The position numbers and the translations under genes are program-made. Below, piece after piece: positions 1 through 24,453 of a stretch of DNA of 24,884 nucleotides (the stretch's first letter is position 1; each line of letters starts with the position of its first letter). This DNA is from a virus. The stretch covers positions 1 through 24,884 of IMG/VR virus record IMGVR_UViG_3300030109_003907; one strand, 5' to 3'. The notes under the pieces were generated by a model. It was not told where the DNA came from, searched no databases, and saw only the letters and a program-made list of their open reading frames with translations.

Positions 1-283
1 AGAACATAACATTAACACCAAACGGACCTCTATCAAAATCTATAAAGTTATAACTCATATCATTAACGATATTAGTCATCCAATTAACTCTACTAAAACT
101 AAACTTATCTTTATTATAAAGATTACGTGCTGGATTCATCATTGGTAACATTACATTACCAATTGAACTCGCTTGAGCAGTAGGTGCTATTGTTAATATT
201 CTATTTGCTTGTGCTAACAATTGACTACCTAACGATAGTAATATTGTCAAACCAAATAATATCCAAAATTTATTTTTTCTCAT
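1..283 (-). CDS. PorV/PorQ-family outer-membrane beta-barrel protein, N-terminal part (runs off the window)
   Basis: Only the first 94 residues are visible; the gene continues past base 1. Residues 1-24 form a signal peptide: a basic start (MRKNK), a long hydrophobic core and a likely cleavage after LLAQA. The following segment has the signature of the PorV/PorQ family, outer-membrane barrels that serve or resemble the T9SS shuttle: an ILTIAPTAQASSIGN stretch equivalent to the family's leading L-x-I-x-P-x-A-R-x-x-x-M-G motif, then MNPARNLYNK (family: N-P-A) and a strand pattern ending GPFGVNVMF. The start overlaps the end of the 38-aa gene by 14 bases, so the two are probably translated together. 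In bacteria PorV binds the C-terminal domain of T9SS cargo, which fits the cargo-like gene two positions upstream. Membership is read from motifs only; a generic outer-membrane barrel is the alternative. Confidence 0.68.
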   Translation of the reverse strand, partial: MRKNKFWILFGLTILLSLGSQLLAQANRILTIAPTAQASSIGNVMLPMMNPARNLYNKDKFSFSRVNWMTNIVNDMSYNFIDFDRGPFGVNVMF

Positions 284-386
284 TTTTACTCTCTATTTTA
301 TCAGAAAACCAAACAATAAATTTTAAGGTGAAATATAATGATGGAAGCATTACAGCTAAAGCGAAGAAAAATTGTAATTCATTCAT
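270..386 (-). CDS. 38-aa single-pass membrane peptide between T9SS cargo and PorV-like gene
   Basis: A short reading frame that fills the gap between its neighbours almost exactly. Its ATG shares a base with the stop of the upstream T9SS-cargo gene (TAATG), and its TAA lies 14 bases inside the following PorV-like gene. The peptide is MNELQFFF, then a hydrophobic stretch of about 20 residues containing two short breaks (a proline near residue 15 and a lysine at 22), then a highly charged tail (SDKIESKNEKK). It therefore looks like one membrane span with a charged, probably cytoplasmic, C-terminus. No family is recognised. Support comes from position, perfect fit and coupling; a chance open frame remains possible at this length. 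Confidence 0.5.
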   Translation of the reverse strand: MNELQFFFALAVMLPSLYFTLKFIVWFSDKIESKNEKK

Positions 387-3286
387 TATTTCACCACCGT
401 AAATTTATTGGCTTTAATTTTATTGTCTGTTTGCATTACAAAAATATAAACACCAGGTTCTAATGTTTTATGGTTTTCATAAACACTAACCTCAGGTAAC
501 CAAACAGTTGGTGTATTAGTAAATTCAAAAGTATGTAATCCAGCTAAAACATTCTCATTTAATAATGTTCCAACTTTTTGTCCTATTGAATTTAAGATAT
601 ATAATTTAACATCTTTTGATTCTTCTAAATAGAATTGGAATGTTGTATTATCTATAAATGGATTTGGATAATTATATGTTATCTCATCATTATCAGGTTT
701 ACCACCACCGAATGCCCAATACTTATTCCATACTAATACTTGACCATCTTTTCTTTTCATTAACAAATCTCTACCTGCAGGTGTTCCAGCTGAATATTTA
801 CCTGTAAATCTTATAGGTGCTGTTGTCCACTCACTATCAGGAAAGTTTGCTTCAAATAATAAATTTAATCCTGTAATTTCTTTATCTATCCAATATGTTT
901 CAGGTTTATTATTTGGTGAATAATCAACTCCACCAAAGGATACTTTTCTCCAACCATCTACAGCTTCATGAACATTCACATACGTCATCCAAGGACCTGG
1001 CAACACATCTGTTTTCATATCTACAAATTCCAATTCATCTTCTTTATATTCTAATTCAAATTCAAATCCTGCTAAAAGAACTCCGTCTCTTGGTGTAATC
1101 GTTAAAGGAACTTCTATCTGATTACCAGATTGAACTCTAACAGTAGAATCAGCAGGTAAAGAAAGAACCACAGCAACTCCATTATCAAAATCATCTGAAG
1201 TTATACCTTGTGATGAATTAAAACTTACTTCATCATTATCTGTATTGATTTTATTTGCGTGTCTTGTTGGTGCACTTCCACCTTTCCATCTATGGAACAT
1301 AATGTTAGATGCGATATCATCTTGATATCCATCTTTTCCATTACCAGGTTCAGTAACTTTAGTTCCTGTATTGTTTATATCACCTGTAAAATAATATCCT
1401 ATATCAGGCATTAGATAATCTGGATTACCAGCTTGGTCATTTTTTTCACTTGTTCTCGCTGCACTCCAAGAAGAATATCCACCACCTAATATTAAGTGAA
1501 GTGTATCTAATCCTGTTTGGTGGTCATCCATTAATGGATTTGTAGTTTCTATCTGACCAAACGATAATGCTTTTTGGTTTGTAGCTAAAGCTCTTGTTGT
1601 AGCCATTGGTGATTTTTTTCCAGCATTATTTCCAGAGGATCTATCTCCTCCAGTACCAGATTCTGCAGTTGTAGTCTCATCCCAATATACAGTAAACTCA
1701 TATTTTTGTGGTCTTGATTGTCCGTTTACTGTTTGATAGTATACGTAGTTATTAGCATTTCCACTCTCTTTAAATACCTCTATTGTAGCCCAATCCTCAT
1801 AAGAGTTTCCATTATGGTGTGTGTAGTTGTTAAAAATACCTGATACGTAAGACCATAATATATAAGTGTCATTCAATTGATATAAATCATCACCATCTAC
1901 ATCACCAATTAAATATTCAATAGCAGTTAACGTATCTATTCTACCACCACCTGCATTATAATTCTTATGTTTACCTGATTGGAAATTAAATGAAGCTATA
2001 GCATCATTTGCATTTGTAATAGCAGTTCTATCTAACTCAAGTTGTGTATGTGCTTCAATATTATCACTTGCATCAGGTGGCCAAAATGACATACGATATC
2101 TATTGTTTCTTGGTAACTGAATACTATAATATCCTTTATCATCGGTGTAAGTTGAGTCATAATAAGATATACCAAGAAATCCCTCTTTGGGTAATGCTTG
2201 TAAAGCAGTTGTTGATTTGTTATCATAATAAAATGTTGCTGTATGGTTTCCAATAACATCGTCAGTTGTAGTCTCATCTTTTTTCTTAGCTGCAGCATCT
2301 GCACCTGTATGGTCAGTTATTGTTTCTACATTTAACCAATTAGATATTCTTGGATTGAAGTTAGCTTCATTGTGGTCTAACTCAAATTTTACTTTCCAAT
2401 ATGGATATGTGTTTTCTGCTGGTGCACTCCAAGCAGCTCCAAGAGCTCTGTCTTTACCTTGAGCATATCTGAAGTATCCCTCAACGTCTAATAGTTTTGG
2501 GTGTAGTGTTATATCACCTCTAGCACCACCTATACCAACTTGTTCTGTACCAGTGTTGCCATCAATGTAAACTTTATAACTAGAGCCATAAAGTCCGTTT
2601 GTAACGTATGTGTAATACCCTGTGCTACCATCGTATTTTGTTGCAACCCTAAATGCTTTAGGAGCAAAGTTATCAGCTACATCATTGACTTTGAAATGTA
2701 GTTTTAATAATTCTGTTTGTGTACCGTTACCATTACCAAAAGTTTTGACATTACCATTGTGAGATACCATTGTTATTCTCAACCAATCATATCTTGTATC
2801 AGTAACGGATAATTCATCATCGGCGTCAGCTAATGAATCAGTATATCCTACGTTAGCATATCTTACAACTTCGTATGAATAGTGAGCACCTGCTGAACTA
2901 TCACCTTCTGTCCAACCTGAAATGTAAGCTCCTTTTTCAACGTGAGTTGAGTCGTGTCCCCACGTAAATAAATCATTGTCGAAAGCTAAATCTAAACGAA
3001 AGGCAGTAACACTAGCTCCGTTATCATCAAGAGTAACAGCTAAAGTCATTACTGAATCTCTCCAGGCATCAAAGTTATTGTTTTTATAAGCTACACCTAC
3101 AGCGGCATTAGTTGTGTTCATACCAGTTGTATCGTCAGCTAAATAGCCTCTCAACTTAAAAGTTTCAGAGTCTCTCCACCAAAATTTAGGTGTCTTATAT
3201 TCTCTACTTTGCATGAGTCTTATGATAGGTGTCTGAGCTTCGATAACGCTCACAACCATCAACAGACTTAATAAAAATTTACGCAA
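386..3286 (-). CDS. Exported T9SS cargo-like protein with cohesin-like and dockerin-like segments and C-terminal sorting domain
   Basis: About 966 residues. I place the start at a TTG (3284-3286), preceded by AGGAGA six bases away; this gives a clean signal peptide MRKFLLSLLMVVSVIEA before Q. A TTG further upstream would add eight residues before the signal peptide. Visible parts: a cohesin-like beta domain (about 70-220, with VTLDDNGASVTAFRLDLAF); a dockerin-like calcium loop (about 461-483, GDVDGDDLYQLNDTYILW); a second one (about 635-665, GDINNTG then DGYQDD); a cohesin-like domain (about 704-812, with LLAGFEFELEY); and a C-terminal domain (870-966) with YNYPNPF, GQKVGTLL, GVYIFVMQ and a final basic strand, as in type A T9SS sorting domains. 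It sits last in the virion operon but looks like a cell-surface rather than a tail protein. What it binds is unknown. Confidence 0.8.
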   Translation of the reverse strand: MRKFLLSLLMVVSVIEAQTPIIRLMQSREYKTPKFWWRDSETFKLRGYLADDTTGMNTTNAAVGVAYKNNNFDAWRDSVMTLAVTLDDNGASVTAFRLDLAFDNDLFTWGHDSTHVEKGAYISGWTEGDSSAGAHYSYEVVRYANVGYTDSLADADDELSVTDTRYDWLRITMVSHNGNVKTFGNGNGTQTELLKLHFKVNDVADNFAPKAFRVATKYDGSTGYYTYVTNGLYGSSYKVYIDGNTGTEQVGIGGARGDITLHPKLLDVEGYFRYAQGKDRALGAAWSAPAENTYPYWKVKFELDHNEANFNPRISNWLNVETITDHTGADAAAKKKDETTTDDVIGNHTATFYYDNKSTTALQALPKEGFLGISYYDSTYTDDKGYYSIQLPRNNRYRMSFWPPDASDNIEAHTQLELDRTAITNANDAIASFNFQSGKHKNYNAGGGRIDTLTAIEYLIGDVDGDDLYQLNDTYILWSYVSGIFNNYTHHNGNSYEDWATIEVFKESGNANNYVYYQTVNGQSRPQKYEFTVYWDETTTAESGTGGDRSSGNNAGKKSPMATTRALATNQKALSFGQIETTNPLMDDHQTGLDTLHLILGGGYSSWSAARTSEKNDQAGNPDYLMPDIGYYFTGDINNTGTKVTEPGNGKDGYQDDIASNIMFHRWKGGSAPTRHANKINTDNDEVSFNSSQGITSDDFDNGVAVVLSLPADSTVRVQSGNQIEVPLTITPRDGVLLAGFEFELEYKEDELEFVDMKTDVLPGPWMTYVNVHEAVDGWRKVSFGGVDYSPNNKPETYWIDKEITGLNLLFEANFPDSEWTTAPIRFTGKYSAGTPAGRDLLMKRKDGQVLVWNKYWAFGGGKPDNDEITYNYPNPFIDNTTFQFYLEESKDVKLYILNSIGQKVGTLLNENVLAGLHTFEFTNTPTVWLPEVSVYENHKTLEPGVYIFVMQTDNKIKANKFTVVK

Positions 3287-3350
3287 GGTAAATCTCCTGT
3301 TAGTTATCAATGAGTAACCTTTTTAGAATAAAAAAGTGTAGACTTTATTT

Positions 3351-3395: not shown

Positions 3396-4496
3396 TTAAT
3401 TTGTGTCGAATTTCACTAGAAAAGAAATTGACATCTCTTTTTCATTTTTTATTGGCTTGGATGGTTTACCTACGGCTAATAATTCATTCTGGTCATTATA
3501 AAGACCTATTTGAGTTATGTAGGTATTGAAGTCTGAATGGGTCGCTGGACCTATCAATTCAGTTCCAATATTATATCCCTCCGGGTTGAATGAACTTGTG
3601 GCGTAACCAACTCGTTCATAGGGAAAGTTAGGGTCTTCATTATTAGAAAATACTGAAGAGGTGAAAGGTGTACCTGCAAAAGATATACTTCCACTCTGTC
3701 CTACTTTAAGACTTTTGTTTGTGGTATGTGTAAATTTATTTTCTTCAATCGAACAAAAATATGAACGTTCGTAAATCGTTTGTGTGGAATCAAACTCTAT
3801 CGTAAATCCATCTGTACCTGTGCCTGAACTTATCGTATCGTATGAACCTGTATCAGTAAATACAATTATTCCGTCATTATAAAAAACATTACCTACGACA
3901 CTTCCACTCATTGTATTTGTGTTTGGTTCACGTCTAGCATAACTAGCTGAAAAAGCCACATCATAAATATTTCCTCTACCATCATCTCGTAAAGTAATCG
4001 TTTTAGATGTACTATCATCCACAATCTTGACAGAACTAGGTTTTATATTTTCACCGAATAATTCTTGAGGAATTGACAAAACATTTGCTGTATCTCTAAG
4101 TTGACGTGTGTAAGGTCTACGATATTTAAATGTTTGAGGTTCAGAATTTGTTGTGAGAAATCTTGTAAATGTATAATCAAGTATAGCTTCAGATGAAGTA
4201 GGAACTCCTCGTATCAAATCTATGTAACCATTCATTTGAGTTATATTACGATAATATAAATTGTTGATAGAATGATACGTAGGAACTTTATAGAAAACAC
4301 TTTCAGAGGGGTTAGATATTGTTTTAGAATCACCATCAGTAGTGTTATAGTTGAATATAGTGCTATCAGTACCTTTTGTTATTGGTACTGAATATATTCC
4401 ACTCCCACTATCAGCCTCAGTAAATGAAAACGTCTTGTGGACTTGAAATGACGAAACTACAATATCTTCGGGTTCAAGGTTTTTCTTGAATGACAT
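3396..4496 (-). CDS. Virion structural protein, probable tail/fibre-associated (paralogue of 4509-5531)
   Basis: 366 residues, starting at ATG after a strong AAGGGGG ribosome site. No catalytic motif is visible; the sequence is rich in Ser, Thr, Gly and Asn and predicted beta. Three blocks are shared in the same order with the neighbouring 340-aa protein: a VKIVDDSTSKTITL-type stretch, an RSYFCSIEENKFTHTTN stretch, and a C-terminal TYITQIGLYNDQNELLAVGK followed by a PI and a charged final strand. The two are therefore diverged copies. Their place after the baseplate genes in the late operon supports a role in the virion, such as a fibre or baseplate-peripheral part. I do not recognise a named T4 counterpart. 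Confidence 0.72.
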   Translation of the reverse strand: MSFKKNLEPEDIVVSSFQVHKTFSFTEADSGSGIYSVPITKGTDSTIFNYNTTDGDSKTISNPSESVFYKVPTYHSINNLYYRNITQMNGYIDLIRGVPTSSEAILDYTFTRFLTTNSEPQTFKYRRPYTRQLRDTANVLSIPQELFGENIKPSSVKIVDDSTSKTITLRDDGRGNIYDVAFSASYARREPNTNTMSGSVVGNVFYNDGIIVFTDTGSYDTISSGTGTDGFTIEFDSTQTIYERSYFCSIEENKFTHTTNKSLKVGQSGSISFAGTPFTSSVFSNNEDPNFPYERVGYATSSFNPEGYNIGTELIGPATHSDFNTYITQIGLYNDQNELLAVGKPSKPIKNEKEMSISFLVKFDTN

Positions 4497-4508
4497 TTAA
4501 AAACCCCC

Positions 4509-5531
4509 TTAGAAATCAAGTTTGACTTTGATAAGAGCTTCTCTCGATTTTGATTTTAAAATTGGTTGACTTAGTTTTGCAATAGCTAACAATTCATTTT
4601 CTGAATTGTACATTCCGACCGATGTAATATAAGTTTTAGGGTCTGAAGCTAATCCATCAACAACTCTTTTTACACCTGCGACTGATTCTGTATAAAACGT
4701 CTCATTAGTTGTTGAGTTAAATTCATTAGCTGTTGCTCTTACAAAGAAGTGTCGTGAAGTTATTTGTTCTTCACGTTTAGCTTGGAAGTAAGCACCTGTT
4801 TTGATTACATTATAAAGTTTCTCATTATTTCTATCATCACTATTTGAACCACTGACGCTAACCAAATTAAGATTACTTGGGTCAGCTAACTTTGTAGGGT
4901 TTAACACTAATACTCCGATACTTGGATAAAACTTACCATAAGTACCAGTAGCTCCTTCACTAGCAGCTGCTGTATCAATACTTGTTCCCCCAACTAATGA
5001 ACCACTGACAATGTTGTACTCAGGAGCAAAATTAACTTGACTTGAGTTACCACCTTTGTTAGTAGATGAATCATCAATTAACTTTACAACAGGACCTGCA
5101 GCTCCATTTTTTAAATGAAGTTCCCAACCTCCTGCTTCCATTCTTTCTCTGATTCTAGCACGATTAAATGAGATTGCATAAAATTCTTTTGTTGATAAAT
5201 CACCGAAAGTAAATTGTGTTGTTTCGGGTGGATTTAAAATATTATTGAATTGACCGAAAATAGCGGCTGTAGGTCTATCACCACTGACACCTACACCTCC
5301 TAGTGAACCACTTCCATCTCTATGACCAAACACTACACCAAACTGAACTGAAGCTGATGCATTTGTACCAGGAGCATATCTATATAAGTCGATATTGTAA
5401 TCACCTGTATTTGTGTATTGTGTTGACGAAGTGTGAAAAGTTGTGATGTTTGAAGCACCATCTTGAAATAAACCAGATGTTACTATGGCAACATCAGATA
5501 CTTTGTCGGTTTCTGTAAGTTGTTTAAACAT
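4509..5531 (-). CDS. Virion structural protein, probable tail/fibre-associated (paralogue of 3396-4496)
   Basis: 340 residues from the ATG at 5529-5531 (MFKQLTETDKVSDVAIV). That ATG overlaps the stop of the upstream gene in the sequence ATGTTTAA and follows an AGGGGG site; an earlier in-frame ATG at 5630 would lie deep inside the neighbour and is less likely. The C-terminus carries TYITSVGMYNSENELLAIAK then LSQPIL, matching the end of the next gene; SRHFFVRATANEFNSTTN and VVKLIDDSST also match it. Mostly beta, Ser/Thr/Gly-rich, with no enzymatic motif. Inferred to be a virion component from position and composition; exact role unknown. Confidence 0.75.
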   Translation of the reverse strand: MFKQLTETDKVSDVAIVTSGLFQDGASNITTFHTSSTQYTNTGDYNIDLYRYAPGTNASASVQFGVVFGHRDGSGSLGGVGVSGDRPTAAIFGQFNNILNPPETTQFTFGDLSTKEFYAISFNRARIRERMEAGGWELHLKNGAAGPVVKLIDDSSTNKGGNSSQVNFAPEYNIVSGSLVGGTSIDTAAASEGATGTYGKFYPSIGVLVLNPTKLADPSNLNLVSVSGSNSDDRNNEKLYNVIKTGAYFQAKREEQITSRHFFVRATANEFNSTTNETFYTESVAGVKRVVDGLASDPKTYITSVGMYNSENELLAIAKLSQPILKSKSREALIKVKLDF

Positions 5532-6195
5532 TAGGCTTTCCCCCTGAGTAGGTTTGTCCTCCAGCTCCGCCAGTAGTGTCACCTCCAGTATTAGCATCAG
5601 TAGTTGGGTCTTGAGTTCCTTGAGCATCACCAGTACCTGTTGTATCAGTCTTTACCGTGATGTTAATCGTTGAGACAAGTCCTGAATTAACTCCTTGAAT
5701 AGTAACTAAAGTTGAAGCATTTGGAGTTGGTGTACCAAATGATTGTGCCATTAATTCAACACTCTTACCTGTAAACGTTTTAGTCGCTCCTTGTCCTGAG
5801 AATCTAACAATGTTAGTATTTTCAATCGTGAATGAGTAATCTTCGACTGGTCCACCTTTTGTAGTAGGACTTAAAGGTATAGGTGCTCCTGCATTTACAC
5901 CAGTGTAAGTAAGTTGAGCTACCTCTAAAGAGGCTCCTGCTGCTGATTGATTTGTAAGAAAACTATTGAAAGTCGTTCTATTAGGCGCTCCTTCGAGTAA
6001 TGACATATTCTCGATAACTGCTCCATAAGAATCGGTTCCGTTTGGGTGAGTAACATCATACAAAGTGTAATCAACTTCTTCATCACTAAGAGCGAACTTA
6101 GTTATGTTGAAATTACCTCCTTGTGAGAGTATTTCACGTCCTCTTTTTGTTAAAATAGCATCAACGGTTATCGTTGAATTATCTAAAAATCCCAT
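5524..6195 (-). CDS. Phage structural protein with conserved GFLDNSTITVDAIL N-terminus and Gly/Thr-rich tail
   Basis: 223 residues from the ATG at 6193-6195, which has GGAG six bases upstream; an in-frame TTG four codons earlier would overlap that ribosome site. The N-terminus (MGFLDNSTITVDAILTKRGR, then FNITKFALSDEEVDYTLYD) resembles a recurrent phage virion-protein start that I have seen in marine T4-like phages without an assigned role. The middle is beta-rich. The last 40 or so residues are low complexity (TGTGDAQGTQDP, NTGGDTTGGAGGQ) and may be a flexible linker or a surface-exposed tail. It opens a group of three fibre-like genes after a 75-base gap that holds a candidate promoter. Confidence 0.75.
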   Translation of the reverse strand: MGFLDNSTITVDAILTKRGREILSQGGNFNITKFALSDEEVDYTLYDVTHPNGTDSYGAVIENMSLLEGAPNRTTFNSFLTNQSAAGASLEVAQLTYTGVNAGAPIPLSPTTKGGPVEDYSFTIENTNIVRFSGQGATKTFTGKSVELMAQSFGTPTPNASTLVTIQGVNSGLVSTINITVKTDTTGTGDAQGTQDPTTDANTGGDTTGGAGGQTYSGGKPNV

Positions 6196-6230
6196 TATTA
6201 TCTCCAAGATTTGAGTGTATATATAACTTT

Positions 6231-13633: not shown

Positions 13634-15625
13634 TTACTCCACTATACCTAAGTTATCACCGACTACTTTTCCTTTAATATCGGAATCAGGATATTTGACT
13701 TCGAAAATACTTGGGTCTAAAGCAGGATATAATACACCATCAATGATACCACTAGCAATATCATAGAAGTTTCCTGAATACCCCTCAGTTGTTTTATATT
13801 TGTTTTCAATCACAATCGGTAAATCATTTGGATTATTTTCGACAGGTTTCACTACTGATGCTACACCATCAATCAATGATAGTTCGTAAGCTATATCAGA
13901 GATAACAATAGGTTGTCCTATTTGTATTCTGTCTGTATTGAAAAAATCTTGAACTGCTGCTACACATTGTAACAAAACATCGTTTTTGTTAAACCCGGCT
14001 TTTGTTAAAATTGAAAAGTTTATACCTATGTTAATAACATAAGCATCTTTTATGTTTACTGCATCCGTTACTAATCTAAATTGTGATAAATATGTTGATA
14101 AATTTTGTTTTACAATTTGACTCATAGGAGCTAAATTTCTATTAGTGTCATAACCTAAAGTATACATATTCATAGCTAAAGGATTAGGAGTTTTTACTTG
14201 TAGTTGTTTAATAGTTCTTCCTGCATCAACATCTGCTTGAGTAACTTTCCTTTCAAGTTCATCAAAACCTACTGATTTATTTAATTGGTCATCTTGTACC
14301 ATACTAACTTTTGCTATGTTCCCGTATTTTTGAGGTAGTGATAAAGCTCTCACAACATAATCTTCTTTAGTAACAGCTCGACTTTGAGCCTGAAAATAGG
14401 CTAACGCACTCTCACGTGTCTCACGTACGGTTTGTCCTCCTGAACCTCCTGTAGCAGGTCTAGGATTTGTAAACGAAACTGAGTTCTTACTATCAGTAAC
14501 GGTGCTCGCATTTAACAAAGCATCCTGTATTTCATACTCTATATTTGTGATTTGATTTATTTCATTCGAAGGAACATTATCATCGATACCACCTCCATGA
14601 GAATACTCTATTGTTAAAGTTGTTCTACTGGGAGCTAAACCGTAAGCTTCTGTCTTTAAAAAATTACTTGGGTCAAAAGCACTTGTCAACTTTGATGGAC
14701 TACCTGGTAAACTTGAACCAACGTTTGTAGGATTAGGAATAATCTCTTCATCAGGATTACTCGATATACCAGCTCCGAATCTTAAAATTGTTTCATCGTT
14801 ATCGTTAATAAAAGTTGTAAATCTACGTGCTGTTTTTTTCAATTTTAGTATGTAAGGAGCCACATCTCTGTTCACAACCGATGTTGGGTCTGTTACTGAA
14901 TTATTTTCCATATCTTCAAAAATAGTATCAGTAGCTAATGAATCTACTTCATACCATTTATTATTATCACTATCAGTACAGGATAATATTTCAATCACAT
15001 CAGTTGAACCTAATTTGATTTGAGAATATTTTTCAGAAGTTCCGAATGTAAATTTTTCAGTAGTAATATTACCACTTTCAACTCTAACTTGTTTTTTCAG
15101 TAAAAACTTTGTTATTGTGCTACCATCGTTTTCAAACACACTTACTTCTTTAGGGTCAAAAGAACTTGAGAACTTAAAGTTACAATCTTCAATAGTTCGG
15201 AATTGTGTACCAGTTGAAGCAGCTTGAAGAGTTGTTCCTGCTTTTACATTAAGAGCATATCTTTCATCTGGTTTATTATTGACAGCCGGTACGGTCTGAA
15301 ATACATCTAAAACAGCTACAGCAGGTGAAGTTGTTTTAGGTTTGTAACCGAATGATTGTGCTATCGTATAAACATTTCTTTTTTCTTCAGCATAAGCTAA
15401 AAGTGATTCTCTAAAAGAAGAATCAATGTAATACGATAATACATCACCAACGTATGCAGCCATCTCAATAAACATCATTCCCGGTGAAGCTTCATTAAAG
15501 TCATTGTAGGTATTAGGGAAGTAAACCTTTGCATATTCAATCAAACTATCTCTAAAATCTGAAAAGTCTTTATTGAGATAGTTTACTTGTTTAACTACAT
15601 TTTTATTTATACTTGAACGAGCCAT
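13634..15625 (-). CDS. gp6: Baseplate wedge protein, T4 gp6 / Mu gp47-J family
   Basis: 663 residues. The N-terminal region is typical of gp6-like wedge proteins: a helix (NYLNKDFSDFRDSLIEYAK), then NEASPGMMFIEMAAYVGDVL (about 45-64), YYIDSSFRESLLAYAEEKRN and IAQSFGYKP, which forms the conserved dimerisation and wedge core. A middle beta region carries HGGG (about 342). The later segment SRAVTKEDYVVRALSLP (about 412-428) is also characteristic of J-like proteins. In T4, gp6 rings the hub and holds the wedges together during sheath contraction. It lies directly after gp25, the expected order, with start and stop sharing bases. Confidence 0.88.
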   Translation of the reverse strand: MARSSINKNVVKQVNYLNKDFSDFRDSLIEYAKVYFPNTYNDFNEASPGMMFIEMAAYVGDVLSYYIDSSFRESLLAYAEEKRNVYTIAQSFGYKPKTTSPAVAVLDVFQTVPAVNNKPDERYALNVKAGTTLQAASTGTQFRTIEDCNFKFSSSFDPKEVSVFENDGSTITKFLLKKQVRVESGNITTEKFTFGTSEKYSQIKLGSTDVIEILSCTDSDNNKWYEVDSLATDTIFEDMENNSVTDPTSVVNRDVAPYILKLKKTARRFTTFINDNDETILRFGAGISSNPDEEIIPNPTNVGSSLPGSPSKLTSAFDPSNFLKTEAYGLAPSRTTLTIEYSHGGGIDDNVPSNEINQITNIEYEIQDALLNASTVTDSKNSVSFTNPRPATGGSGGQTVRETRESALAYFQAQSRAVTKEDYVVRALSLPQKYGNIAKVSMVQDDQLNKSVGFDELERKVTQADVDAGRTIKQLQVKTPNPLAMNMYTLGYDTNRNLAPMSQIVKQNLSTYLSQFRLVTDAVNIKDAYVINIGINFSILTKAGFNKNDVLLQCVAAVQDFFNTDRIQIGQPIVISDIAYELSLIDGVASVVKPVENNPNDLPIVIENKYKTTEGYSGNFYDIASGIIDGVLYPALDPSIFEVKYPDSDIKGKVVGDNLGIVE

Positions 15626-16041
15626 TAATATCCTCCTGTAGAAGCATCTATTGTGATTTGATTTATTGTATTAGGATTCAATGTCGTTGAGTAATCTATC
15701 TTGACATAAATTTGATTTAAATCTCCTTCTTCAGTCAAAGTCTCAACGTTTTGAATATTAATGTAATCTAACCACTCTGAGACAGCACGTCTCACTTCTT
15801 TTTCAATGTTTTCTGGTAACTCATCATTTTGTTGTTCAAAACAAAGTTCCAAAAGTTTACTACCAAAAGTTGGTTGCATTGGTCTTTCACCAATATAAGT
15901 TTGTAATAAATTTTTTAAATTAAACTCAGCTTGTTCTAAGGAAGTTTTTGTCAAAGCAAAATCATGGAACTTATCTCTTCCTAAAGGTAATTTTAATCCA
16001 ACGGTTTTATTCGGATTTAAATCTGTTTCAATAGCTGACAT
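15625..16041 (-). CDS. gp25: Baseplate wedge protein, T4 gp25 / GPW family
   Basis: 138 residues, the usual size for the family. Conserved features: LGRDKFHDFALTKTSLEQAE, the NLKNLLQTYIGERPMQPTFG segment (about 42-60) containing the family's GER-x3-P-x-FG motif, LLELCFEQ, and an amphipathic helix ENIEKEVRRAVSEW. gp25 bridges gp6 and the start of the tail sheath and is thought to seed sheath assembly. The start overlaps the preceding stop (TAATG), as does its own stop with gp6. Confidence 0.92.
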   Translation of the reverse strand: MSAIETDLNPNKTVGLKLPLGRDKFHDFALTKTSLEQAEFNLKNLLQTYIGERPMQPTFGSKLLELCFEQQNDELPENIEKEVRRAVSEWLDYINIQNVETLTEEGDLNQIYVKIDYSTTLNPNTINQITIDASTGGY

Positions 16042-18352: not shown

Positions 18353-18357
18353 GTTTG

Positions 18358-18430
18358 AGCCAGAGATAGGATTCGAACCTACGACCTAGTGATTACAAAT
18401 CACTTGCTCTACCAACTGAGCTACTCTGGC
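18358..18430 (-). tRNA. tRNA-Thr (anticodon TGT)
   Basis: A complete 73-base cloverleaf: acceptor GCCAGAG/CTCTGGC, D-stem GCTC/GAGC, anticodon stem AGTGA/TCACT with loop TTTGTAA (anticodon TGT at 18395-18397), T-arm with TTCGAAT, and discriminator T. CCA is not encoded. It reads ACA, which is frequent in an AT-rich phage with Thr-rich structural proteins. It is the last gene before the shared terminator and lies six bases after the selenocysteine-type tRNA, so both are probably processed from the transcript of the sigma-factor operon. Confidence 0.93.
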
Positions 18431-18436
18431 TTATAG

Positions 18437-18529
18437 CGGCGACGGATAGGAATCGAACCTACCTGTAGTATCAACTACTACACTACGGTGTTGAAGACCG
18501 AGGAGAGCACCAGCTACTCAATCGTCGCC
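18437..18529 (-). tRNA. selC: Selenocysteine-type tRNA (anticodon TCA), UGA-decoding
   Basis: 93 bases with anticodon TCA at 18492-18494 in loop CTTCAAC. Sec-type features: the 3' strand between T-loop and discriminator is 13 bases (CCTATCCGTCGCC) instead of the normal 12; the D-arm can form six pairs (GAG and AGC with GCT and CTC, one bulged T) closed by a four-base loop TGGT; a long variable arm GTAGTA/TACTAC; G73 discriminator; and G1-C72. The acceptor GGCGACG/CGTCGCC has seven pairs, and a six-pair T-stem gives a 13-pair coaxial stack. The anticodon stem is weak (four pairs). The alternative is a serine- or leucine-type opal suppressor, which would normally keep 12 bases and a short D-stem. 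CCA is not encoded. Confidence 0.72.
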
Positions 18530-19266: not shown

Positions 19267-19516
19267 TTACATCTTCTCCTTTAAAACTTTCTAATTGTTT
19301 TATGGTTCCTTTGATAGCCTCAAATATACTACCAATCTCATCATCAGATTCAAAGTGTCCTGTTGAATCAATTTCTTTTAAGTCGGTATCTACTTGCTGT
19401 ATTACTTGTGTAAAATCTTCTACCCAAGTTTCGAGAAATTCTGTTTTTCTAAATAAGTTCCAAATAACATATCCCTCAATAACGACTAATAATCCTAATA
19501 CTATTTCTATTATCAT
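19256..19516 (-). CDS. 86-aa membrane-anchored acidic protein, unknown
   Basis: 86 residues: an N-terminal membrane span (MIIEIVLGLLVVIEGYVIW), then a cytoplasmic-looking helical, acidic part (KTEFLETWVEDFTQVIQQVD, GHFESDDEIGSIFEAIK). A similar arrangement, one span followed by an F-E-x-D-D-E-x-G motif, recurs in phage genes of unknown role that I have seen near gp55 or exonuclease genes. It is coupled to both neighbours (TAATG upstream, 11-base overlap downstream). A function cannot be given. Confidence 0.68.
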   Translation of the reverse strand: MIIEIVLGLLVVIEGYVIWNLFRKTEFLETWVEDFTQVIQQVDTDLKEIDSTGHFESDDEIGSIFEAIKGTIKQLESFKGEDVNAS

Positions 19517-20334
19517 TATTTATCTCCGAATAATTCGTTAAACAAATCTTTGGACTTTTCTGATAAAATATCAGGAGTTTCTGATTTAGTGATAGCCTCT
19601 TTGATTGTGTTTACTGATTTTTGTTCTTGTTCTTCACGTTCTTTTTTGAGTTCAGGATTAAGAATCTCACTATAATTAATATCAGAATCTTTACTGAACA
19701 TATAACGTTCTTTTTCTAATCTTGTGGCCATCATATCAGCTTGATGTAGTATTAAAGGTAAATTTGTTTTAAGATTTTTACCCTCACCGAATCCCATCAA
19801 GTATCCTTTATTAGCATCTTCATACATTCCATCAGTCAATCGTAGAGCTAAATATTCGATTTGATTCATTTTAATATCAAACTGAGTTAGTAACCAAACA
19901 GCTCTGTCTGTAACGGTCATATAATGTAGTTTGTCATTATACTCGTACATTTTGCCTTGATTGATTCTATGCCACTCAGACTCGTTAGGTACATAGTAAT
20001 CTTCTTTCATATCACCTAACTTACCTAAGTCGTGATGAAGAGCACAGAAGATAACATTTTCAAGAGTGTATTCGTCTGTATGAGCTCCCATCTCTTTCCA
20101 CATCTCATATATTTTTTGAGAACATTCTGTAATGTTAAGAATATGGTCAACATAACCTCCAGGTATCGCATTGTGATAATACACAACACCACTAGCAGGA
20201 GCGAACATAGCTCTATCTTTAAAGTAATCATACATTTTCAAGAGATTTTCTTTTCGTTCTCCTTCAAAGGTATCTTCTATTATACCGATTAGTTTGTCCC
20301 AATTTTCTTGTATTTGTTCTGCTGTAAATTGCAT
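19516..20334 (-). CDS. HD-domain phosphohydrolase
   Basis: 272 residues with the HD superfamily metal-binding set: H64 in GGYVDHILNI, the HD pair H101-D102 in CALHHDLGKLGD, and D200 in LILHQADMMATRLE. Such enzymes hydrolyse phosphate bonds in nucleotides or signalling nucleotides with divalent metal. The C-terminal 60 residues are charged and probably disordered or helical. AGGAG lies six bases ahead of the ATG, ten bases after dpdA. Lying between a DNA-base transglycosylase and the late sigma factor, a role in nucleotide pools during infection is plausible, but the substrate cannot be read from the sequence. Confidence 0.82.
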   Translation of the reverse strand: MQFTAEQIQENWDKLIGIIEDTFEGERKENLLKMYDYFKDRAMFAPASGVVYYHNAIPGGYVDHILNITECSQKIYEMWKEMGAHTDEYTLENVIFCALHHDLGKLGDMKEDYYVPNESEWHRINQGKMYEYNDKLHYMTVTDRAVWLLTQFDIKMNQIEYLALRLTDGMYEDANKGYLMGFGEGKNLKTNLPLILHQADMMATRLEKERYMFSKDSDINYSEILNPELKKEREEQEQKSVNTIKEAITKSETPDILSEKSKDLFNELFGDK

Positions 20335-20343
20335 TTTTTCTCC

Positions 20344-21546
20344 TTAAAAGAAATTGTGTGTTGAATTTGTAGGTTGTTTTTTAGTATTACTCATTTTCAT
20401 ATAAAGTTGTTTATATGATTCGAATACTCTTGATGGGTCTTCACTCTTGACCATATCATCAATGGACCTCAATACTTTATATACTTCACTATCTACTGCT
20501 TGTTCCAATATATAATCGTGTCCATAAATTAGTTCAGTTACCATTCTGATAGCATCTTTAAATACATAAAAGTTATGTAATCTCATACCCATAGTACATT
20601 GTGTATTCCAATCAGCTACATCTTTCCAAGAAACAAGTCCTCTAAGTACATCATCAAAAGCAGTCATACGAGGCCAATCTTGATTAGGTGTTTCTCTAAA
20701 CCACTCTATAATGTCTGGATTGTGTTTTTCACTCGGAAAGTTGATTGATTCAAATGTACCTTTCTTTATACTAAATCGTGTGTAATATGTACCAAAAACG
20801 ACAGCTCTGTCAGGAGACGAACTATCAGTCGTTACAACAATATTGGAACCAATATCCTCAAGTGATTTCTGTAATTGAATCAACATCAAGAAGTCTCTGA
20901 TTTTAGAAGTACCAAGAATGTGAAAGTATTCATTACGAGGATTTAAGTGTTCTTTACCTTGAAGTAGAGCATGGACACCTGACATAAAACGATAAAGACT
21001 ACCACCAGCACCTCCGATACCCCAACCATTGAAATCAAAATCTTTGACTTGGTCATACCAGTGTTTGTAAGTGTGTTCGTCATCACCTTGTACTACGTTT
21101 AAGAACTTTGTAGAACCATCTTGTTTTGATTGAAAGTATTTGAAATTGTCAATACTAACATCTAAACATTCGTGAAACTTACCTTCGTTCTTTAAACGAG
21201 GAGGTAAATCTAAGTTCATCGCCACATCAGTATTTTCTGATAACCAGTTGAAGATTTTATCTCTATATTTTAAATCCCATTTGAGAGCTCCAGATGCGAA
21301 CTGAAATCCTCCTGAATCACCCATAACAAGATTTCTATCAGTAAGTCCCATTTTGTTTTTGTAATCTTTTACTGACATATGCGCTCCCGCTGTAATCAAT
21401 AATTGATTGTGTTGAAACTCTTCAGGATATTCTTCACTATAAAATCGTATCGTCATATCATTTCTGAAACGATGGTCTTTTACAAAGTTAGAACCCATCT
21501 CACCAGCTGAGAATGAAGGAAAATAAATAAAATTAGTTTTAATCAC
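20344..21546 (-). CDS. dpdA: DpdA-type (DNA) guanine transglycosylase, TGT superfamily
   Basis: 400 residues, starting at GTG (21544-21546), which overlaps the stop of the glycosyltransferase gene by eight bases. TGT-fold motifs: GDSGGFQ (76-82) with the substrate-binding Asp77; NLDLP (111-115); VVQGDD (151-156); GWGIGGAGGSL (174-184), matching the G-G-x-A-V-G loop of TGT; FHILG (208-212); and TTDSSSP (239-245), whose Asp241 sits where TGTs have the nucleophile. The C-terminal zinc site of tRNA TGTs is not intact: one Cys, then HNFY. This pattern fits phage DpdA enzymes, which swap guanine in DNA for a 7-deazaguanine, rather than tRNA-modifying Tgt. FolE, QueE and a QueD-like protein in the same operon would supply the base precursor. 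Confidence 0.78.
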   Translation of the reverse strand: MIKTNFIYFPSFSAGEMGSNFVKDHRFRNDMTIRFYSEEYPEEFQHNQLLITAGAHMSVKDYKNKMGLTDRNLVMGDSGGFQFASGALKWDLKYRDKIFNWLSENTDVAMNLDLPPRLKNEGKFHECLDVSIDNFKYFQSKQDGSTKFLNVVQGDDEHTYKHWYDQVKDFDFNGWGIGGAGGSLYRFMSGVHALLQGKEHLNPRNEYFHILGTSKIRDFLMLIQLQKSLEDIGSNIVVTTDSSSPDRAVVFGTYYTRFSIKKGTFESINFPSEKHNPDIIEWFRETPNQDWPRMTAFDDVLRGLVSWKDVADWNTQCTMGMRLHNFYVFKDAIRMVTELIYGHDYILEQAVDSEVYKVLRSIDDMVKSEDPSRVFESYKQLYMKMSNTKKQPTNSTHNFF

Positions 21547-22519
21547 GGAACCACCTTTCCATAGCTTCTTGATAATCTCTAACGTGTAATGGAGCTAATA
21601 AGTTACCTTTCAAAGCCATATTAACTTTATCACAAGCAGTATCGAAAGTATCATACAAATATTGTTCACTATAAAACTCAGGATAAACCAATCTGTTAGG
21701 AACAACAGGAACACAACCTAGATAAACAGCTTCAGCAATACTGAATCCAAAGTTTTCTTGTAGAGCAAAACTTACTACAACTTTAGCTCTACTCAACAAA
21801 TCATAATACTCATCTTTTGAAAAGTTATGTTCAAGAGTATTGATGAACTGAGTACTACCTATAACATCACCTAATCTATCTTCCATTTGTTTAAATAACC
21901 AAGGTTGTTTTTCATCTACATTTCTACCTGAGAATACTACTATATCTTCTTTAGGTTTCTTTTCAACTTTATCAAGATTTTCTGTATCTAAAGGAAATCC
22001 AGTTACAACTAACTTGTCAGGATTTATCAATCGTTTTTTAATAATATCATTTTTTATAAAATCACTACCACAATAAATTTCGTCAGCAATATCAAACAAA
22101 GTATCTTCAAAGTTTTTAGCCCATCGTTCCATATCTCTCACAAAATCAGTATCAGTAAAACTACCAGCGTGAATAAGTCCTCTTAACTTTACATCTTTCT
22201 TAGCAAAGTAATTCATATAAGCTATACTTTCGGGAAGTCCTGGATGCCATAAATCAGAACTCCAAATAACATCTCCACTATCAATCACATCTTCACGATA
22301 TAATCTAGCCACTTCTTCAATCTGAGCTGCTTTGAATCTAATTGTAAACTCAGCATCAAGAAAACTTCCTGCCTTCATACTTGTAGGAACAGGAATGTCA
22401 GGATAAACTTTGATACATTCTCTATCTAAGTTATCAAGATAATTTGATATATCTCTGTCCATATGAGTTGTGTATCTTGACTCAATATGTTCAAGAGGTA
22501 AGTAAATTATTTTACCCAT
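21539..22519 (-). CDS. GT-B glycosyltransferase (family 4-like)
   Basis: 326 residues from the ATG at 22517-22519, which has GGAG nine bases upstream and overlaps the previous stop in ATGGGTAA; an in-frame ATG ten codons earlier is less well placed. A Rossmann-like C-terminal domain carries VVFSGRNVDEKQPWLF (donor-binding start) and ENFGFSIAEAVYLGCVPVVP (about 255-274), the E-x7-E motif of retaining family 4 glycosyltransferases. The N-terminal domain has IWSSDLWHPGLPESIAYMNY and GLIHAGSFTD. No membrane span. It lies between the QueD-like gene and dpdA with overlaps on both sides, so its target may be phage DNA; glycosylation of a protein or surface glycan is the alternative. Confidence 0.8.
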   Translation of the reverse strand: MGKIIYLPLEHIESRYTTHMDRDISNYLDNLDRECIKVYPDIPVPTSMKAGSFLDAEFTIRFKAAQIEEVARLYREDVIDSGDVIWSSDLWHPGLPESIAYMNYFAKKDVKLRGLIHAGSFTDTDFVRDMERWAKNFEDTLFDIADEIYCGSDFIKNDIIKKRLINPDKLVVTGFPLDTENLDKVEKKPKEDIVVFSGRNVDEKQPWLFKQMEDRLGDVIGSTQFINTLEHNFSKDEYYDLLSRAKVVVSFALQENFGFSIAEAVYLGCVPVVPNRLVYPEFYSEQYLYDTFDTACDKVNMALKGNLLAPLHVRDYQEAMERWFRD

Positions 22520-22859
22520 AGATTTCAGCTCCATTCTCGTTATCTTCAAATACTGAACAATACACTAAATCAAATTCTTCTAACAATTCTTTAGCCAACA
22601 TCTCACAAGACTTTGCCTTGAAGTTACAACAATCATATTGTTCATCATAGTATTTATCTTCTAAATACTTTTTGACCTTTCTTTTAAACACGATAAACTC
22701 TACATCTCTGTCATCGTGAAAAACTTCTTTTTTAACTTCGATATGAAACATATGCCTATGAACTGATTCAAGGTATACCATTGTGGGTTCATATTTACTT
22801 GCTTCTGACCACCAGTGTAGTCCTTCAACTTGTAGTCTACATATTATATTAGTTTTCAT
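22512..22859 (-). CDS. QueD-like (6-pyruvoyl-tetrahydropterin synthase-fold) protein
   Basis: 115 residues. The layout fits the QueD/PTPS fold: a first strand ending in GLHWW (His15), then HRHMFHIEV (His34, His36), giving the H...HxH zinc set; ENGAEIY at the end matches the closing strand. QueD converts dihydroneopterin triphosphate to 6-carboxytetrahydropterin, the step between FolE and QueE. However, the catalytic Cys expected between His15 and His34 is missing and a D-H pair is replaced by HDDRDVEFI, so it may be a diverged relative with a different activity. The HRH...HDDRDVEFI signature is one I associate with many phage proteins of unassigned role. Overlaps both neighbours. Confidence 0.5.
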   Translation of the reverse strand: MKTNIICRLQVEGLHWWSEASKYEPTMVYLESVHRHMFHIEVKKEVFHDDRDVEFIVFKRKVKKYLEDKYYDEQYDCCNFKAKSCEMLAKELLEEFDLVYCSVFEDNENGAEIYG

Positions 22860-23262
22860 TTAAATAGTCCTGTATTTCTTCTGAATCTTTAGTTTCCCAA
22901 GGATAAACAATCCATTTATCTCGTTTATCAATTAATGCTAAATCTGGTTTAACAATACTTTGTTCGTGTTCGTGAATTGTTACATAAAAACTTTTCTCTG
23001 ATTTAGGGTGATTTTTATATTTTTTTAATGTATTACCCGTGTCAGCTATATCATCAATTATTACAACGTTTTCATTTACGTCATCAAATCTATCAATATA
23101 TGGAATATCCATTTTATGACTTAATAATATAGCTAACAACGCTCCGCCTCTAGGTATACCATAAACACCTTCAAAAACTTTACCTCTATCTTCATCTTTT
23201 AGATAAAACGCTATATCTGTGATACACTCATCAATTAACTCCCAACTTATAAATTCTTTCAT
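22849..23262 (-). CDS. Phosphoribosyltransferase (type I)
   Basis: 137 residues with the PRPP-binding loop VVIIDDIADTGNTL (66-79) and the upstream GIPRGGALLA (35-44). Near the C-terminus DKWIVYPWE resembles the W-x-x-x-P-W-(D/E) of xanthine/guanine phosphoribosyltransferases (Gpt group), which add ribose phosphate to a purine base. It starts inside the end of folE (ATGA) with AAGGGA six bases before and overlaps the QueD-like gene by 11 bases. In this operon it could salvage guanine, or a deazapurine, into a nucleotide; the substrate is not determinable here. Short for a Gpt (usually about 150). Confidence 0.78.
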   Translation of the reverse strand: MKEFISWELIDECITDIAFYLKDEDRGKVFEGVYGIPRGGALLAILLSHKMDIPYIDRFDDVNENVVIIDDIADTGNTLKKYKNHPKSEKSFYVTIHEHEQSIVKPDLALIDKRDKWIVYPWETKDSEEIQDYLNEN

Positions 23263-23885
23263 TTTAAATCCCTTATAAAGTTATAAAATTCTTCTCGTGA
23301 ATGACTATCATAATTCATAAACTCACCACTCAACTTAGATGTTTTCATAGTAGAATTATGTTTGATACCACGTACACAAGCACACATATGGTCAGCCTCG
23401 ACAGATACAGCAACACCAATGTTTTCTTCACACACATCGTGAATGTGGTCGTGTACCTGCATTGTTAAGTTCTCTTGTACTTGAGGTCGTCTAGCATAAA
23501 AATCAACAATACGATTGAGTTTACTAAGTCCAATCACTTTACCCTCAGGTGTAGGTAGATAAGCCACGTGAGCATGTCCTACGAAAGGTAAATGATGATG
23601 TGAACAAAATGAATGTAATTTAATATTACCTTGAAACACAATACCATCATAACCATCTACATTATCAAATGCTGTTATCTTAGGTGATTCATTATAAACA
23701 CCTGAAGCTAAATCATTGACAAAAGCTTTAGCCACTCTGATAGGAGTTTCAGAAGAGTTAGGGTCTTCACTCCAATCGAATCCAAGAGCTGTCATATAAT
23801 TACCATAATGTTCAGCAGCTTGTTCAATCATCTTTAGTTTTTCTTGTTCTGTCAACGGATTGTTTCCGTTAGCATGTTTCAACAT
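23259..23885 (-). CDS. folE: GTP cyclohydrolase I
   Basis: 208 residues, close to the usual bacterial length. The zinc ligands are all present: C94 and H97 in FCSHHHLPF, and C168 in DHMCACVRGI. Other family blocks are VAYLP, GKVIGLSKLNRIVDFYARRP and QVQENLT. The enzyme turns GTP into dihydroneopterin triphosphate, the entry to both folate/biopterin and 7-deazaguanine (queuosine, preQ0) synthesis. With queE and dpdA in the operon the deazaguanine route is the likely purpose. Starts at ATG with AAGGA nine bases upstream, inside the end of the previous gene (17-base overlap). The stop is TGA, one of only two in the window, overlapping the next ATG. Confidence 0.95.
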   Translation of the reverse strand: MLKHANGNNPLTEQEKLKMIEQAAEHYGNYMTALGFDWSEDPNSSETPIRVAKAFVNDLASGVYNESPKITAFDNVDGYDGIVFQGNIKLHSFCSHHHLPFVGHAHVAYLPTPEGKVIGLSKLNRIVDFYARRPQVQENLTMQVHDHIHDVCEENIGVAVSVEADHMCACVRGIKHNSTMKTSKLSGEFMNYDSHSREEFYNFIRDLK

Positions 23886-24453
23886 AATGTACTTTCCTTA
23901 TTAAATGTTTAAATCTTTTATCATCTAGTTTAACTGGTATAAGATGAGCATAATCAGATTGTTTAGTTCCAATATATGCTATTTTTTGAATCCAATTATT
24001 GTGTTCAGGTCTATCCCATTCTCTATAAATAAAAGAACGCATTTCGTATAAATCATAATATACATAGCTTCCTGTAGCAATCCATTTATTATTTTCTTGT
24101 ATTATTTCCATATGATATATTCTATTAGATTGTGAATCTTGTATCCAACCTAACTCTTCTTCTCTACCATGTTCAGAAAATTTAGCAGGATGCCATTTTG
24201 TATATTCTAAATCAAATTGATAACAATTATTATATTTATTATACCAAAAATTAGATTTAACGTCTGTGGTTATTTCACTTGACCAACTTTTATTTTTAAA
24301 ACCGTAATCTATACCTTTTCCCTGAACATCTTTCCACATTTCATAGTTAGTGTAGTCATACACTTCGTCCCATTGTGATTGAGCCATTTCACGAAAAGCT
24401 AATTCACCAGCTTTACCTTTTGTTAACTGCTTTACAAATAAAGCTTTACTCAT
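23869..24453 (-). CDS. PD-(D/E)XK nuclease-like protein
   Basis: 194 residues. The N-terminal part has the order of the PD-(D/E)XK nuclease core: a helix with Glu (KGKAGELAFREM, E17), then GKGIDYGF (D49), then ITTDVKSNFW (D64-x-K66) and a following strand FDLEY. The rest is rich in Trp and Tyr (YVYYDLYEMRSFIYREW) and does not match a family I know. If active it could cut host DNA, repair phage DNA, or be a homing-type enzyme; its place inside a DNA-modification operon would fit a nuclease that ignores modified phage DNA. The motif match is short and the nuclease call is provisional. It overlaps the upstream gene in ATGAGTAA. Confidence 0.5.
   Translation of the reverse strand: MSKALFVKQLTKGKAGELAFREMAQSQWDEVYDYTNYEMWKDVQGKGIDYGFKNKSWSSEITTDVKSNFWYNKYNNCYQFDLEYTKWHPAKFSEHGREEELGWIQDSQSNRIYHMEIIQENNKWIATGSYVYYDLYEMRSFIYREWDRPEHNNWIQKIAYIGTKQSDYAHLIPVKLDDKRFKHLIRKVHYVETC

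Follow-up and report, generated by a model that had tools for sequence, protein, structure and literature searches.

A putative type IX secretion cargo with cohesin- and dockerin-like modules, and an adjoining PorV-family gene, in a clade of marine phages

A virus record in IMG/VR (IMGVR_UViG_3300030109_003907, positions 1 to 24,884; this whole stretch of 24,884 nt is called the window here) carries at one end a gene for a protein that resembles cargo of the bacterial type IX secretion system (T9SS). The locus raises two questions: does the gene belong to the phage, and what would a phage gain from a protein built for the export machine of its host? We consider it quite probable that the gene truly belongs to the phage and encodes a type A T9SS cargo, through which the phage would display a cohesin/dockerin coat by way of the host T9SS; this view is built on sequence and predicted structure. 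Here and in related marine phages the gene is followed directly by one for a PorV-family outer-membrane protein, and a homologous cassette was found in the cultured Flavobacterium phage immuto.

Anatomy and phage origin of the cargo-like protein

The C terminus of the protein carries a YNYPNPF-type stretch, which the first-pass annotation had taken for a T9SS sorting domain and had proposed to check by profile. This reading was borne out, since the type A sorting domain profile TIGR04183 matches at 28.9/26.1 bits, over its curated cut-off of 23, and the match reaches the last-but-two residue. The Pfam family Por_Secre_tail (PF18962) scores 18.1 on the same protein, below its gathering score of 27. 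Relatives were collected by a search of viral contigs; TIGR04183 lies above its cut-off in 34 of the 35 phage records with cargo relatives, the sole exception being a cut contig, and all aligned relatives share the PNPF of the sorting domain. The signal peptide at the opposite end, also part of the earlier description, is supported as well: it is called by a simple rule in 64 of 69 cargo relatives, and glutamine stands after the hydrophobic N terminus, at the expected cleavage point, in 27/27 aligned cargos. A glutamine in this place corresponds to the Q-rule of Bacteroidetes, which also has high values in a handful of further groups such as Ignavibacterium (PMC5837995).

Between these two signals lie cohesin- and dockerin-like modules, an anatomy that favours a cohesin-dockerin assembly on the cell surface. 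Two cohesin-like domains had been proposed, of which the C-terminal one is the better supported: Pfam Cohesin (PF00963) scores 23.2 bits on the window protein against a gathering cut-off of 24.1 and is matched in 26 of 27 relatives, and cohesins are the best PDB fold matches for the better parts of the AlphaFold model (template-modelling, TM, score to the target ~0.75). The N-terminal one depends on a model of moderate confidence, and a profile comparison between the two domains gave no significant match. Two dockerin-like calcium loops had likewise been proposed. The first (GDVDGDD..LND) was retained as EF-hand-like and nearly invariant among the 27 relatives; Pfam dockerin (PF00404) gives no match to the window protein, which has one EF-hand-like loop and not two repeats, and relatives that share its domain layout match Dockerin_1 weakly (E-values of 7e-4 to 7e-3, below the cut-off). 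The second, GDINNTG, lacks the EF-hand pattern and was rejected as a calcium loop.

The reading frame is open on the minus strand only, the plus strand having many stops. A mechanical open reading frame (ORF) would give 974 residues, 8 codons more than the 966 claimed at first; the shorter form is the correct one, because an AGGAG site lies 7 nt upstream of the TTG at 3286 and the same start residue is ATG in most relatives. A scan for promoters and terminators around the gene gave background level.

Relatives of the cargo were found at 70 loci in viral contigs, with 47-89% identity. Most of these loci, on contigs that reach 83 kb, keep the order of the upstream tail and baseplate genes, in agreement with the tail operon described earlier. 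This operon includes T4-type baseplate wedge genes (PHROG matches to gp6 and gp25), as in T4-like tailed phages, and the window gp6 shares 41-45% identity with gp6 of immuto and of a Microcystis phage. The position of the cargo gene at a contig end, together with the existence of one chimeric contig among the relatives, might suggest that host DNA had been joined to the phage by misassembly, as the first-pass annotation had warned. We give this explanation next to no credence and regard it as ruled out by synteny: dozens of independent contigs share the gene order, and a homologous cassette is present in the genome of a cultured phage. When 296 Bacteroidota genomes were searched with the cargo profile (E<1e-12), only sorting domains of other proteins and one phage contig were matched, so that the cargo body is otherwise missing from them. 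A tblastn search of the cargo against GenBank phages gave no match. A 9160-nt contig entirely of the marine phage family (L073, NZWA01000008.1) is binned in a public metagenome-assembled genome (MAG) of Flavobacteriales, which may be contamination or a host signal.

A PorV-family gene directly downstream

The cargo gene had been described as the last-but-two gene of its operon. This was incomplete, as a PorV-family gene comes next and is cut by the window end. The 94-residue fragment in the window matches the PorV/PorQ family profile NF033709 at an E-value of 0.001 (18.7 bits), and the same profile is matched by 28 of 29 aligned relatives. Several longer relatives reach its cut-off of 90 bits (L041, 125; L046, 113; L123, 98.6; L049, 95; L030 and L129, 90.1), and two others remain below it (L003 and L065, ~76 bits). 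For a full-length relative AlphaFold2 (AF2) predicts a barrel, with a predicted local distance difference test (pLDDT) score of 83; its top PDB fold match is PorV as part of the T9SS translocon (8gl6_F; E-value 1.4e-10, TM 0.71), followed by 6h3i_F (TM 0.68), with FadL ranking behind. The sequence profile of the family matches the PDB PorV 6h3i at 2e-14.

The two genes are tightly linked. They stand side by side in 64 unique contigs, and the PorV-like gene comes next in every cargo contig that extends more than ~110 nt past the cargo; at the 22 cargo loci without it, the contig stops inside the cargo or ~110 nt or less beyond. When PorV alone was used in an independent search, the cargo turned up ahead of it wherever the locus left space, except in L115. 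This 4197-nt contig is an IMG/VR chimera, in which genes judged by eye to encode a gp32-like and a porin-like protein are fused to the cargo end and the PorV-like start; it seemed to hold a PorV without cargo and yet keeps the last bases of the cargo gene. In ~20 loci the reading frames of the pair share 1-4 nt or stand within 11 nt of each other. Glutamine follows the signal peptide in 29/29 aligned PorV-like proteins, and in a tree with ten bacterial sequences, a small bacterial sample, the phage proteins form one clade (support 99/95). The gene is confined to the marine clade: only 2 of 49 other records have PorV, both apparently clade members. In GenBank phages, tblastn of PorV recovered only two distant, unannotated faecal contigs. 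These 'Bacteriophage sp.' entries (MT836010, 10759-11640; MT835954, 4171-4665) show 27-31% identity to the PorV-like protein and could be either phage or mis-filed bacterial DNA.

In bacteria, PorV collects type A cargo at the translocon and conveys it to the attachment complex (PMC5562754). The phage protein has the same FadL-like barrel, and PorV (PDB 6h3i, 8gl6) is its best match in both sequence and fold; it differs in being shorter (~290 residues), in scoring under the PorV equivalog cut-off and in being encoded beside a cargo gene. Type B cargo genes of bacteria frequently have a PorP/SprF shuttle gene of their own directly behind them (PMC12618676). The phage pair shares this arrangement of an outer-membrane shuttle-type gene directly after a cargo gene, whereas it combines a type A sorting domain with a PorV-family barrel and not with PorP/SprF.

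The wider cassette and the cultured phage immuto

The cargo is part of a larger phage cassette made up of the cohesin and sorting-domain protein, a lipoprotein (family F7) and further exported proteins. The lipoprotein, encoded a few genes downstream of the cargo, has a homologue in immuto (vB_FspM_immuto, Immutovirus, NC_055915; 30% identity, 8e-23), where gp17, gp18 and gp19 correspond to the marine families F7, F9 and F10 in the same order. The immuto genes gp13-gp19 are consecutive. Among them, gp15 combines a signal peptide, a cohesin and a T9SS type A sorting domain, all three profiles lying above their cut-offs (Pfam Cohesin, 36.7 bits; Por_Secre_tail, 34.6; TIGR04183, 44.8), and its cohesin aligns with the C-terminal cohesin of the marine cargo in hhalign at an E-value of 5e-10. 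The two forms differ in that the immuto cargo is split into gp14 and gp15, whereas the marine one is a single 966-residue chain, and in that immuto has an extra C-type lectin with a dockerin-like loop (gp13) and no PorV-like gene. In further records (L187-L193) a single protein of 634-658 residues matches gp14 and gp15 jointly; by sequence, this fused protein appears as an intermediate toward the marine form.

A search that used F7 by itself returned at least 516 viral stretches. Outside the marine clade, the T9SS sorting domain was found above cut-off in 27 of 28 such records, in 26 of these 27 at 1.6 kb or less upstream of F7, and in all three records without it in that scan (G334, G335 and G349) the record ends close upstream of the cassette match. 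The typical homologues of ~640 residues have a signal peptide, Por_Secre_tail above cut-off and, in some, a weak Dockerin_1 match. Cohesin is above cut-off in 6 of the 7 scanned (the seventh scores 24.0 against 24.1). A PorV-like gene was sought in immuto and RM378, and a T9SS sorting domain in RM378; none was found. Neither PHROGs nor Pfam pointed to a useful function for F7, F9 and F10. Their assignment by eye to curli/CsgG, in line with a 'curli' annotation in PMC7198788, was not supported: F7 has no match above cut-off to CsgG (PF03783) in five records and no PDB or Pfam match.

The proteins of the gp13 type (L188, L191, L179 and L180) vary in their head domain (C-type lectin, a Laminin_G insert or other) and conserve the dockerin end; tandem duplication of this partner is possible. 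The presence of Lectin_C and Laminin_G proteins with dockerin-like loops beside a cohesin anchor speaks for an adhesive coat, in which the cohesin protein would hold lectin-dockerin partners and stick infected cells to neighbours or particles, so that progeny would spread more locally at lysis. Adhesion genes in the genome of a marine Bacteroidetes phage have also been suggested to act in aggregation (PMC7198788). However, no lectin partner was recognised beside the marine cargo, and the partners carry no sorting domain, which leaves their route to the surface unexplained. We judge such a coat to be doubtful as the main purpose.

The location of the cassette bears on a different possibility, that of a virion accessory: an envelope-held protein would load onto particles at lysis through cohesin-dockerin contacts and act as an extra fibre. 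In the marine operon the cargo gene comes after those for baseplate and tail, which would fit. However, the signal peptide and the sorting domain, both conserved, would take the protein away from the site of assembly, and the immuto cassette lies at 11-16 kb, far from the tail genes (its gp6 homologue is at 82 kb). The marine cassette also has a second genomic context, as the cargo follows a portal gene (F40) in L041, L043 and L046, and in L041 and L066 the cassette is succeeded by a head-protease-like gene (F58); this context adjoins head genes. A virion accessory is accordingly improbable. Much the same standing is given to a function in lysis or envelope remodelling, whereby the exported proteins, the lipoprotein F7 and the membrane coiled coils F8 and F11 would disrupt or prepare the outer membrane, the T9SS domain being incidental. 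The run of several exported envelope proteins and weak spanin/holin-like PHROG matches of F8 and F11 are consistent with it, but these matches are at the level of coiled coils, and the strict conservation of the sorting domain argues for its use; we see this as a long shot.

The features of the window are collected in Table 1. The three genes next upstream of the cargo gave no family match that suggests a function and are probably tail or fibre proteins by position. Elsewhere in the window, ARAGORN predicts a tRNA with a UCA anticodon (selenocysteine type, long variable arm; 18436-18529, minus strand) adjoining a tRNA-Thr (18357-18430, minus strand). TAA is the stop codon in 21 of 23 genes and TGA in only one, and the UCA tRNA is possibly a UGA-reading phage tRNA. 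A metabolic block at 19516-24453, recognised by eye (folE-like GTP cyclohydrolase, DpdA/TGT-like protein, phosphoribosyltransferase and glycosyltransferase-like protein), hints at deazaguanine modification of DNA or tRNA. Among the marine relatives, L123, L124, L125, L128 and L129 carry a ferredoxin-like gene of 95 residues with two cysteine-rich clusters between F8 and F7. One ORF of more than 3568 residues (L146, 2366-13070) lies at the end of the 82-kb relative G018.

Table 1. Features of the cargo locus and its surroundings in the window
Positions	Strand	Feature	Basis
2..283	minus	PorV/PorQ-family outer-membrane protein, 5' part, 94 aa, cut by window end	NF033709
386..3286	minus	T9SS cargo-like protein, 966 aa, TTG start	ORF; TIGR04183; relatives on 70 IMG/VR contigs
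395..670	minus	T9SS type A C-terminal sorting domain (YNYPNPF...)	TIGR04183
728..1171	minus	C-terminal cohesin domain	Pfam in relatives; PDB folds; hhalign to immuto gp15
1364..1384	minus	GDINNTG motif, conserved	Alignment; counterpart by eye is GDANGTG of ~640-aa homologues
1868..1903	minus	Dockerin-like calcium loop DVDGDDLYQLND	Nearly invariant across 27 relatives
2681..3052	minus	Beta domain near the N terminus, resembling cohesin in fold only (moderate confidence)	AF2 pLDDT ~70
3236..3286	minus	Predicted Sec signal peptide, residues 1-17, then invariant Gln (Bacteroidetes Q-rule)	Alignment; predicted cleavage site
3294..3298	minus	AGGAG ribosome-binding site, 7 nt 5' of TTG	Sequence
3396..6207	minus	Three phage genes upstream (two F0-type, one F2-type)	Synteny; same order in most relatives
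13634..16041	minus	gp6-like and gp25-like baseplate wedge genes, strand and operon of the cargo	PHROGs baseplate wedge

Possible use of the host secretion system

If the cargo is displayed as we propose, it would cross the inner membrane through Sec by means of its Q-rule signal peptide, and the host T9SS translocon would accept the C-terminal sorting domain and bring the protein to the outside of the infected Bacteroidota cell. In the marine clade, the phage PorV-family barrel would receive it, most likely as a dedicated shuttle or anchor. At the surface the cargo may link to its own copies or to dockerin-bearing partners (the lectin proteins in immuto-type phages) and so form a phage-made coat. 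Such self-association or capture of partners is suggested because cohesin and dockerin-like modules share one chain, and expression would be late because the cargo stands after the tail genes. A stronger version, in which the phage shuttle re-programs the host T9SS so that the cargo is preferentially delivered and held as a self-associating cohesin-dockerin coat, is put forward tentatively, as somewhat less likely than not.

The same pair of proteins could instead serve exclusion by hijacking, with the PorV-like protein and the cargo occupying the host translocon or replacing receptor adhesins, and the cargo itself as the blocker. Phage PorV could compete with host PorV. However, the elaborate and conserved cohesin/dockerin modules would be unneeded for jamming, the location after the tail genes suggests expression that is late for exclusion, and immuto-type phages have no PorV; we find this use rather unlikely. 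For a displayed coat, our first choice of benefit, itself short of an even chance, is the masking of receptors, either as superinfection exclusion or to keep progeny off debris. Adhesion or aggregation of infected cells is a less probable second choice, and virion loading is a poor third.

Several points weigh against the proposed display through a phage-assisted T9SS. Taken as a whole, the cargo is modelled poorly by AlphaFold (pLDDT 48), and its dockerin-like part is weakly assigned. The PorV-like proteins score below the equivalog cut-offs for PorV (NF033710, 250) and PorQ (NF033711, 220), with maxima of 80.9 and 69.3 bits, respectively, among the seven scanned in full, and a shuttle role is therefore not compulsory. 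As immuto-type phages carry the cargo without PorV, the cassette does not depend on that gene. The host is likewise reached indirectly: the Q-rule, the T9SS signal, the relative cultured on Flavobacterium and the contig binned in a Flavobacteriales MAG point to Bacteroidota, the phylum (as Bacteroidetes) to which marine Far-T4 phages have been assigned (PMC7198788).

The first-pass annotation knew of no described phage using the T9SS route. Two reports contradict this, and the idea of phage T9SS cargo is therefore not new. Cryophage (Bellas et al. 2020, PMC7468147), a Bacteroidetes phage, encodes T9SS-labelled cargo with type A sorting domains; compared by description only, its proteins are of the endoglucanase, GH39 and PA14 kinds, and the accessible part of that report does not mention PorV. 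Gut phages with BACON-domain proteins, described in 2019 (PMC6949934), similarly carry T9SS sorting domains, in genes that lie close to structural genes and to those of the BACON proteins. They differ in having BACON repeats, and neither cohesin nor PorV is described in the accessible part of that source. The open-access literature searched yielded neither a description of a phage PorV-family protein nor one of the conserved cassette; the pairing of a phage cargo with a PorV-like shuttle from the same phage, like the cassette itself, appears to be new.

Until now, type IX secretion in phages has been a passing remark on the cargo genes of single metagenomic phages. Here it would become a trait conserved across many large phages of Bacteroidota, one marine clade of which has a shuttle of its own. 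If true, no shuttle for a bacterial protein-secretion system would have been known from a phage before, to judge by the literature searched. Since a homologous cassette is present in a cultured phage-host pair, direct tests are possible. They could address whether phages remodel the surface of infected Bacteroidota, what sets the destination of T9SS cargo, and why mutations in T9SS and gliding genes are so common in phage-exposed flavobacteria.

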